A stretch of 51,155 nt of DNA, taken from NCBI GenBank assembly GCA_945861465.1, contig CAMAVB010000020.1, positions 1-51,155 of the forward strand, written 5' to 3'. The translations under genes and the position numbers were made by a program. This document shows, in pieces, positions 14,003-31,673 of the stretch. Origin of the DNA: Candidatus Kuenenia stuttgartensis (GTDB lineage: Bacteria; Planctomycetota; Planctomycetia; Planctomycetales; Planctomycetaceae). Below the pieces are notes generated by a model that did no database searches, was not told the DNA's origin, and saw only the letters and a program-made list of their open reading frames with translations. How positions within the stretch are numbered: the first letter of the stretch is position 1; every line of letters starts with the position of its first letter.

Positions 14003-14083
14003 CGATGTGTGCCACTGGCTCTGCCAGTGTTCTTCATCGGCATGAAACACTGGCAGAGCCAGTGGCACACAACCCATCAATGA
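14003..14083. repeat. TGTGCCACTGGCTCTGCCAG palindrome (copy 1 of 3)
   Basis: The left arm GTGTGCCACTGGCTCTGCCA and its complement flank a short variable centre. Each arm folds on itself as CACTGGC/GCCAGTG. Other copies are at 27561-27667 and 31891-32001, where outer ends TGTCA...TTGATG and CATCAAT...TGACA extend the symmetry. Confidence 0.85.
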
Positions 14084-14135: not shown

Positions 14136-14290
14136 CCCTCCCTTAAACCACTGGCGTGGACTTAAGGCGAGCGGGGGATGTCAATCCCCTGATTTGTCGC
14201 GGATGATGCGGAAATCAGGGCACTTACGTACCCCGGTCGCCTTTGGAATTCCTTAAGTCCACGCCATCCCCCCTTAAACCACTGGCGTTG
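14136..14290. repeat. Nested inverted repeat around TGGCGTGGACTTAAGG
   Basis: TGGCGTGGACTTAAGGCGA on the left pairs with the complement of CGCC...CCTTAAGTCCACGCCA on the right. Inside is AATCCCCTGATTT facing AAATCAGGG. CTTAAACCACTGGCG occurs directly at both ends as a direct repeat. No coding potential was seen in 13925-14296. Confidence 0.7.
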
Positions 14291-14296
14291 GCGCAT

Positions 14297-14339
14297 AAAA
14301 AAAGGCCGATCGGATTGAATTGAATCCGATGGCCTTTTT
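14297..14339 (-). terminator. Intrinsic terminator of the hairpin RNA
   Basis: GGCCGATCGGATT and AATCCGATGGCC form a 12 bp stem with one bulge and a six-base loop, flanked by seven A on one side and five T on the other. On the minus strand the stem is followed by TTTTTTT, so it best ends leftward transcription; it is weaker for the plus strand. Confidence 0.85.
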
Positions 14340-14557
14340 CAAGGAGCGAGGTTTCTCAGGCACTCGCTCAAATACACGGGCTCGTTTCTCAGGCGAGCCA
14401 TCGTCTCTCACAATACTGCGTTCTCAGGGCAGTACGCTGCTTCATCAGGGCAGCTGTTGGGCTCAAGGATCTCACTCCGAGCCCGGTCTCTCTCTCGAAA
14501 GAAGAGTTAAGCAAGGTCCGTGCCATTCGAGCTTCAAAGACTGTGGGAGACCGACTC
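14297..14557 (-). ncRNA. Candidate structured RNA: serial hairpins with repeated CCTGAGAAA loops
   Basis: Read on the minus strand, five hairpins precede the terminator: 14484-14459 (GGGCTC/GAGCCC), 14454-14436 (GCTGC/GCAGC), 14434-14414 (TACTGC/GCAGTA), 14399-14379 (GGCTCG/CGAGCC) and 14369-14344 (GAGCGAG/CTCGCTC). The last four carry loops CCTGATGAA, CCTGAGAAC, CCTGAGAAA and tgCCTGAGAAAc. Stem sequences differ while the loop is kept, as expected for a repeated binding site in an RNA. A longer-range pairing (CGGTCTC near 14550 with GAGACCG near 14486) may close the 5' domain. No reading frame fits and no Rfam class I know matches. The 5' end and promoter are not resolved. It is back to back with tadA. 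Confidence 0.7.
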
Positions 14558-30128: not shown

Positions 30129-31673
30129 TTATCGGTCGATCTGAATGCGGTATTCCCGCAGCATTTCGGCACTTGCCGGGACGTCTGCCGTGAGGATCAC
30201 GATGGCTCGCCCGTCGATCGATTCAACTCGATAACCAAAGGGCTTTCCGGTGTACGGATCCGGCATGGCAGGAACCGGATCCAACTGGTCGAGTGATTCG
30301 GGCAGTTTTCCTTCGTGCGTCGCCGCGTGCATCCGGAGTGCTTCGACCGTCATCAGCCGCTGCTGCGTCATCAGTTTTCGCACCTCCGCCTCATGGACCT
30401 GCGAAATGGCGGGAAAGAAGACCGAGGCGACCATCGCTCCGCCGGACGACCAGCGTTCCTCCTGAACCCATTGCTGAAATCGCCTGTCCCGGGCAACCAT
30501 CAGAGGTTTGCGCATTTCGATCGGCAACAGGTAAGCCTTGACGGACTCATCCGACAATCGGCGAAGCTCACGCGCTGTGTCGATGATGACGATCTGAGTC
30601 GGTGGCATGTTTTCCAGCTTCTCCGCAGAAAAACCAGATCCAAGGAGTCGCTGCCGTGCGGGTTCCACAAAACCGACAGTCGCCATGGCAAGCGCCAGTG
30701 AAACCTTGTTCGAAGAATCCCCCGTCAGTTTTCCGAGCGGCTCAAGCGAATCGACCCATCTTTTTCTCCAGACTTCCTCAGGATAATTCGCATGCTCGGC
30801 ATCGGCAAGCAGAGGAAAGAGTCTCGTCAGGAAGTGCATTTCAAACTGAACCGAATCACGGATTTTCGAAATCGGACGAGGCAGACTGGCAAGTGCCCAG
30901 TAAAGGTTCGGACAACCGGGAGTTTGAATCGCCCGATCCACGGTGTCCTCCATGATCGAGGCGATGGCAATCGCGACAAGCTGTTCAATCAGCGTTTCCC
31001 CGGTCGCAATCAGCGACGACAATCGGTACCCGTCGGAGATTGTGGAAACAGCTCCTTCGAAATCGCGGCGATCAAGTTGTTCAAGGGCTCGCAGTCGCAG
31101 CAGCCGTGCCAGTGTTCGTGCCTGCTGGACATCAGGAAGCAGGAAGCTGTACAACTCAATTCCGCTGAGGTCACGGATGTGGTGGTCCATATCGACCACT
31201 TCTGACAGAGCCATCGTATGCAGTTCATTGAGTACGGCGGTCTGCGTATCAATAAAGCTTCGGACTGTTGCCATGTCCGGATCGTCGCCGTCTGGACTCG
31301 AGAGCGCTTCAAGCTGCTTGTGATACACTGGGGTCTGACTGGGCAGAAGCGTCAAGGCCCGAAAGAAATGCTGCTGAGCTGAGCCAGGTTTCAAGGCAGA
31401 TCGAGCTGGCCAGAATTGGTATTTCAATGCGGGCACAGGTTCACCAGCTGGCATCGTGATTCGCAGTTTCGTCGCCTTTTCTTCGCGCTGCTTCATCGGA
31501 GCTTTCTGCTGCTCCAGAGTCATGGTGGATCCCAATCCACCATCCGCCGCAGGCACAAACGGAGGTTGCTTCGACGGTGTCGCCGGGGACACCGACGAAT
31601 CTGTTTGCTGCGCGGAAGCAACTGGAATTGCCCCCAGCCAGATCACGAAGACAATGACAAGTCTGAAGTTCAT
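30129..31673 (-). CDS. Exported protein of unknown function
   Basis: A protein of about 514 residues with a signal peptide (FRLVIVFVIWLGAIPVASAQ) and a Ser/Pro/Gln-rich linker. The body is mostly helical (about 100-480) and reads like an exported helical repeat protein (HFFRALTLLPSQTPVYHKQL, LARLLRLRALEQLDRRDFEG). The C-terminal LPESLDQLDPVPAMPDPYTG and KPFGYRVESIDG resemble the tail often found in planctomycete exported proteins that follow a pattern of stating a formatted ratio or property. I recognise no enzyme motif. The ATG at 31673 is chosen for the signal peptide; an earlier in-frame start gives an unlikely leader. It is downstream of the anti-sigma and sigma genes on the same strand, 385 bp after them. 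Confidence 0.6.
   Translation of the reverse strand: MNFRLVIVFVIWLGAIPVASAQQTDSSVSPATPSKQPPFVPAADGGLGSTMTLEQQKAPMKQREEKATKLRITMPAGEPVPALKYQFWPARSALKPGSAQQHFFRALTLLPSQTPVYHKQLEALSSPDGDDPDMATVRSFIDTQTAVLNELHTMALSEVVDMDHHIRDLSGIELYSFLLPDVQQARTLARLLRLRALEQLDRRDFEGAVSTISDGYRLSSLIATGETLIEQLVAIAIASIMEDTVDRAIQTPGCPNLYWALASLPRPISKIRDSVQFEMHFLTRLFPLLADAEHANYPEEVWRKRWVDSLEPLGKLTGDSSNKVSLALAMATVGFVEPARQRLLGSGFSAEKLENMPPTQIVIIDTARELRRLSDESVKAYLLPIEMRKPLMVARDRRFQQWVQEERWSSGGAMVASVFFPAISQVHEAEVRKLMTQQRLMTVEALRMHAATHEGKLPESLDQLDPVPAMPDPYTGKPFGYRVESIDGRAIVILTADVPASAEMLREYRIQIDR

Follow-up and report, generated by a model that had tools for sequence, protein, structure and literature searches.

The minus strand at 14499-14297 of the window (the whole 51,155-nt stretch of DNA analyzed here) looks like a stand-alone small-RNA gene, with a sigma-54 promoter, a GAGAGAG-type start, serial hairpins, and an intrinsic terminator (Table 1). 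Known from sequence comparison are the promoter element, the terminator, the covarying hairpins, their near-constant loop, and the recurrence of that hairpin in the leader of a pilin-like surface-protein gene. We propose that the RNA may be a sigma-54-dependent, trans-acting, multivalent decoy that titrates an RNA-binding regulator, a reading to which we give about an even chance of being correct.

Table 1. Positions of the small RNA, its parts, and a related site elsewhere in the genome of the window (G000).
Feature	Coordinates	Strand	Remarks
Sigma-54 (-24/-12) promoter-like element	14511..14525	-	TGGCACGGACCTTGC; one of two strict matches in the window
Small RNA, predicted length about 203 nt	14297..14499	-	Covariance-model match of 195.6 bits (own sequence in the model) and covariation
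Hairpin 1	14459..14484	-	UGAGA in loop, which reads GTGAGA or AGTGAGATCC according to how the inner pairs are drawn
Hairpin 2	14436..14454	-	GCTGC stem, loop CCTGATGAA, then GCAGC
Hairpin 2b	14413..14435	-	TACTGC, loop CCTGAGAAC, GCAGTA
Hairpin 3	14379..14399	-	GGCTCG, loop CCTGAGAAA, CGAGCC
Hairpin 4	14344..14369	-	GAGCGAG / CTCGCTC stem, covarying; CCTGAGAAA within the loop
Intrinsic terminator	14297..14339	-	Stem covaries
Stop-codon hairpin in G000	G000:C9:36240-36260		Only other hairpin site accepted in G000

An earlier note on this DNA had described five minus-strand hairpins before a terminator, with different stems (GCTGC, TACTGC, GGCTCG, and GAGCGAG) around a nearly identical loop; the hairpins and terminator were found where it had placed them, and the sequence bears out the stem-loop pattern. 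Its extent of 14297-14557 stands at the terminator end, 14297, but the RNA is probably shorter, with a 5' end near 14499 that is predicted from the sigma-54 element at 14525-14511. Hairpin 1 carries CCTGAGAAC as its loop in three congeners (G006, G007, and G010), and hairpin 2b is present in only part of the homologues. The loop of hairpin 2 in the window is a departure from the C[CT]TGAGA found at the same place in the other 13 aligned rows, and hairpin 4, drawn with a loop of 12 nt, takes on the same 9-nt loop when a further G-C pair is closed past a bulged T. A 311-nt segment containing the RNA folded with a z score of -2.98, and 0 of 100 shuffles were as good. Hairpins with a UGAGA-centered 9-nt loop and at least 5 bp occurred twice in all across both strands of the window, both times in this RNA, with three more elsewhere in the window when at least 4 bp were accepted; among 5,000 dinucleotide shuffles of the RNA, one had two UGAGA hairpins with 9-nt loops. 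Inverted repeats (CACTGGCTCTGCCAGTG ... CACTGGCAGAGCCAGTG) and CCACTGGCGT/TTAAG repeats, possibly REP- or MITE-like, were seen by eye in the intergenic DNA directly downstream, at 14006-14071 and 14140-14290.

The decisive evidence that the hairpin RNA is real is comparative and comes from its homologues. BLAST against 59 relatives returned long matches in nine congeners, at 70 to 90% identity, and shorter ones in G006, G007, G010, and G022. A covariance model built from 14 RNAs aligned with MAFFT matched strongly in 15 of the 18 genomes in the genus (E of 1.1e-22 or better); in the other three (G001, G004, and G015) the small RNA was not detected, and the best model matches were other elements. 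The RNA was also found in 12 genomes of four other genera (G022; G106, G203, G258, G268, G270, and G276; G118 and G246; and G236, G249, and G260), all at 72 bits or more, which makes five genera in all, and 14 rows of the resulting 27-row score table are those that built the model. Two further matches, at 36.4 bits in G170 and 24.7 bits in G021, appear to be divergent copies. Strict hairpins number one to four per RNA across the 27.

Selection on an RNA structure had been proposed from the differing stems of the window, and the suggested covariance-model search of planctomycete genomes did recover homologues whose stems covary, in five genera. Double changes affected 18 of 43 pairs in the 14-row MAFFT alignment, in 48 cells where shuffles gave 16.9 (0 of 500); in this alignment, further pair types did not exceed the shuffles (36 against 36.2; 310 of 500). 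In the 27-row alignment, which was made by the model and so is fitted to it, double changes affected 37 of the 43 pairs, in 156 cells where shuffles gave 38.6 (0 of 500), further pair types numbered 96 against 61.3, and 92.8% of cells were paired, against at most 44.8% when partners were slid. Stems vary and loops hardly do, the nine-base loop being near-constant and mostly CCUGAGAAA. Within a set of 71 nine-base loops chosen for a UGAGA center and at least 4 bp, position 1 was C in 56, position 2 was C in 44, and position 8 was A in 55. Looser loops occur as well, such as the 12-base loop with which hairpin 4 is often drawn and the CCTGATGAA of hairpin 2 in the window.

The element TGGYAY-N5-NTGC, which we take to be the sigma-54 -24/-12 consensus, lies upstream of all 27 homologous RNAs, with its GG 21 to 27 nt before the start used; since the starts of the first 14 RNAs were set from the element itself, this distance is independent only for the other 13, and the presence of the element in the first 14 is not independent either. 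The strict pattern matched twice across both strands of the window, and the second match (TGGCACGGCTGCTGC) is at 31111 on the minus strand. Of 29 genomes searched for a sigma-54 DNA-binding domain, 27 gave a match, the window's own among them; the two that did not, G012 and G276, are fragmented assemblies. The earlier note had held that the RNA is not part of a gene and lies divergent from tadA; the deaminase gene to which it gave that name was within the fetched flank at 4 of 14 loci, with different neighbors at the rest. Because gene setting varies in this way among loci, the RNA is not tied to a neighbor and appears to be a free-standing gene.

Weaker matches were treated strictly. A search of the class (198 genomes, strict filters) gave 21 genomes at E up to 0.01, of which four belong to the genus and four others were kept (G106, G203, G118, and the divergent G170); the remaining 13, including all 8 outside the family, were set aside by eye. 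Twelve of these lacked a sigma-54-like site where one was sought and had no more than one CYTGAGA string, and G151 (L158), with one hairpin 68 nt after a sigma-54-like site, was also set aside. Four loci (L155, L157, L158, and L164, from G241, G259, G151, and G219) have a sigma-54-like site 68 to 144 nt upstream of one hairpin with a GGCCCG or GACCCG stem and the loop CCTGAGAAA, and may represent a one-hairpin relative of the small RNA. Single-hairpin matches were put down to chance if no sigma-54-like site lay in the 400 nt upstream of them, which removed 4 of 20 loci (L167-L170) and 11 of the 13 loci of a further set, the other two of which (L159 and L275) are the small RNA; G000:C131 was checked and dropped. 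Planctomycete MAGs accounted for 7 of 11 stretches in a scan of genome contigs, with lone hairpins in two Vibrio, one Atribacteria, and one Elusimicrobia stretch set aside by eye, and a scan of viral sequences gave no matches. A resemblance of CUGAGA to the TPP riboswitch was rejected, there being no Rfam match, and so was one to C/D boxes, which scored low; for TRAP (NAG) sites, the G/A-rich resemblance was simply tallied.

A single-hairpin model, whose input also included the hairpins of L052, L067, L068, and L070, located two further kinds of site in most congeners, namely, the leader of a pilin-like gene and the stop codon of an HTH_17-response-regulator gene. The pilin-like protein combines a short DExGxIxSxE segment at its N terminus with a hydrophobic stretch and a fast-changing tail that is often Cys- or Pro-rich. 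Its likeness to pilins is our reading of the sequence and not database derived; Pfam gave no match above threshold for the three members scanned. In a gene-first search, the top pilin-like match reached E of 3.6e-33 or better in 15 genomes of the genus. The hairpin lay upstream of the best-scoring gene in 14 of 14 parsed congeners, 134 to 569 nt before the start codon, and G016, in which the leader hairpin was located by coordinates, brings this to 15 of 15 congeners with the best-scoring form of the gene; the profile used (A4) was made from genes beside hairpins, with 7 of its 9 rows from the genus, and the ranking is not independent of the hairpin. The leaders read were those of the best-scoring loci and some lower copies, from a gene search that revealed many more copies, and the hairpin was absent from the 10 lower-scoring loci that could be parsed among 15 taken, two of the 10 having short upstream sequence. 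UGAGA-in-loop hairpins numbered 19 in the 14 leaders, where none of seven control cores gave more than 1, and a sigma-54-like site was present within 600 nt in 7 of the 14.

Beyond the genus, the leader hairpin was seen at 5 of 29 pilin-like loci (G170, G236, G262, G059, and G128), and a sigma-54-like site was seen at 11 of 29, with or without the hairpin. Ten small-RNA genomes were searched for the pilin-like gene (G022, G106, G118, G203, G236, G246, G258, G268, G270, and G276); among the loci examined, RNA and leader hairpin occurred together only in G236, and G106 and G270 had no match to the gene at all. G170 combines the leader hairpin with a divergent RNA copy. Conversely, G001, G004, and G015 in the genus and G059 and G262 outside it have the leader hairpin, and the small RNA was not detected there. 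The window's own genome had no match to the pilin-like family in the gene-first search; its 17 congeners had two to eight each. The link between RNA and pilin-like gene thus appears firm within the genus and thin beyond it. Because G000 is without the pilin-like gene and RNA and leader hairpin rarely coincide in other genera, other targets must exist.

The second site places the stop codon of the HTH_17-response-regulator gene inside the hairpin loop in 14 of 18 congeners, with one stem pair being C-G, T-A, or A-T depending on the genome. By eye, this hairpin was absent in G006, G007, and G010, in a reading that covered the congeners other than G011, and in 17 genomes of other genera with a readable gene end (4 of 25 loci could not be parsed). 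The regulator is 78 to 93% identical in 25 of 26 genomes searched, and its gene (L149, 10250-10837, minus strand; also L150) adjoins an SMC-looking gene. The regulator is one candidate partner of the RNA because its own message carries the site in part of the genus, yet a weak one because it also exists where no RNA was found.

A shared motif in a small RNA and a message leader indicates a common binding partner. The earlier note had seen the repeated loop as a multivalent site, a suggestion strengthened by the same hairpin in mRNA leaders, and the bound factor would be a protein. Such a protein would recognize the UGAGA-centered loop, perhaps together with neighboring single-stranded GAGAGAG, and would act posttranscriptionally on the pilin-like leader; when sigma-54 and its activator are on, the small RNA would rise and draw the protein from the leader. 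That this relieves repression is a guess, made by analogy, as to the direction of control. Counting against a decoy, the distance between leader hairpin and start codon means that the ribosome site would not simply be covered. The motif on candidate targets, an expectation for decoys, was present in all 14 parsed leaders of the genus, absent in G000, and present in 1 of the 10 small-RNA genomes outside the genus. Because of this last figure, we rate lower both the decoy and a more specific version, to which we give slightly less than an even chance, in which Planctomycetes would have a switch of their own: a dedicated UGAGA-hairpin regulator with a sigma-54-driven decoy, controlling a pilin-like surface protein that evolves fast and, possibly, the HTH_17-response-regulator with the stop-codon hairpin as well.

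Three other explanations were weighed. The RNA might act by base pairing, with its loops (CCUGAGAA) or single-stranded GAGAGAG as seeds for UUCUCAGG- or UCUCUC-type mRNA sites; the loops and the 5'-terminal GAGAGAG are nearly invariant among the RNAs, as expected of seeds, and TCTCA is present in 5 of 14 pilin-like leaders, at the same place in three close relatives. However, the linked leaders hold the motif itself and not its complement, and TCTCA is absent downstream of the hairpin in 9 of 14. Pairing between RNA and leader is disfavored because it needs a complement that is not conserved, and we consider a base-pairing RNA unlikely. Alternatively, the hairpins may be docking or protection sites for a ribonuclease or RNA chaperone, with the small RNA and the leader as parallel clients and the RNA acting through another part. 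The same module on transcripts with a common sigma-54-like promoter would fit, a stop-codon hairpin would suit a 3'-end element, and RNA and leader hairpin would not need to co-occur; yet several copies persist within a single small RNA (one to four strict hairpins per RNA), suggestive of valency rather than a single docking site, and this explanation seems to us quite improbable. That the transcript is coding is very improbable indeed. A short frame runs through hairpins 3 and 4 and in the window has 20 codons (MARLRNEP..LAP). In L001-L007 it begins with ATG or GTG; L008-L010, L013, and L014 also have an open frame through the same hairpin, one that differs in start, end, and length. Nothing similar exists in L011 and L012, however, and the peptide reading was rejected because neither start nor stop is conserved among the 14 loci, the stems covary, and the copy number varies.

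The earlier note did not recognize a known family, and Rfam 15 agrees: nowhere in the 51-kb window did a family reach its gathering score, and a search relaxed to E of 5 brought up just three low-scoring matches on this stretch, the best at 20.1 bits against 45. CrcZ of Pseudomonas is an RpoN/CbrB-dependent decoy of Hfq, 407 nt long with six A-rich stretches, and is likened to the CsrB/RsmZ decoys (PMC4063720). Alike are the sigma-54 promoter (27 of 27 here), the stand-alone RNA, the repeated binding motifs, and a bound factor that would also act on messages; unlike CrcZ, the planctomycete RNA presents a UGAGA hairpin loop on about 200 nt, and the repeated A-rich motifs of CrcZ/CrcY are scarce, (ARN)4 occurring once and AANAANAA twice in the 27 RNAs. 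CsrB and RsmZ are decoys of CsrA, with serial hairpins that carry GGA in their loops. Serial hairpins with one common loop motif are found here too, but the motif is UGAGA and not GGA, which occurs in none of the 71 loops, themselves defined by UGAGA, and 64 times in all in the 27 RNAs. EutX and Rli55 are decoys of the ANTAR protein EutV, and ANTAR sites are paired (tandem) hairpins with six-base loops; there, as here, decoy RNA and mRNA leaders have hairpins in common, but the loops here are of nine bases, except in hairpin 1, which can be drawn with six. As a decoy, the planctomycete RNA would work like CrcZ or CsrB, yet be a member of neither. The Rhodopirellula-1 candidate motif, a structured RNA candidate from Planctomycetes that is listed for Proteobacteria too (PMC2864571), has a 'y' in what reads as the cis-regulatory column of the table, and is set apart by that description and not by comparison of sequences. 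Titles and abstract openings among the literature matches listed held no description of this RNA, with subscription journals and preprints outside the scope.

In sum, small-RNA control in Planctomycetes is nearly blank; a 2022 survey lists 8 distinct annotated small RNAs for the entire PVC group (PMC9029176). Against this background, the result is an RNA family that is supported by covariance and comes with a promoter class, recognition module, and candidate target, and its RNA-binding partner can be hunted with a single bait. If the Planctomycete switch is true, it would be a posttranscriptional system as yet undescribed.
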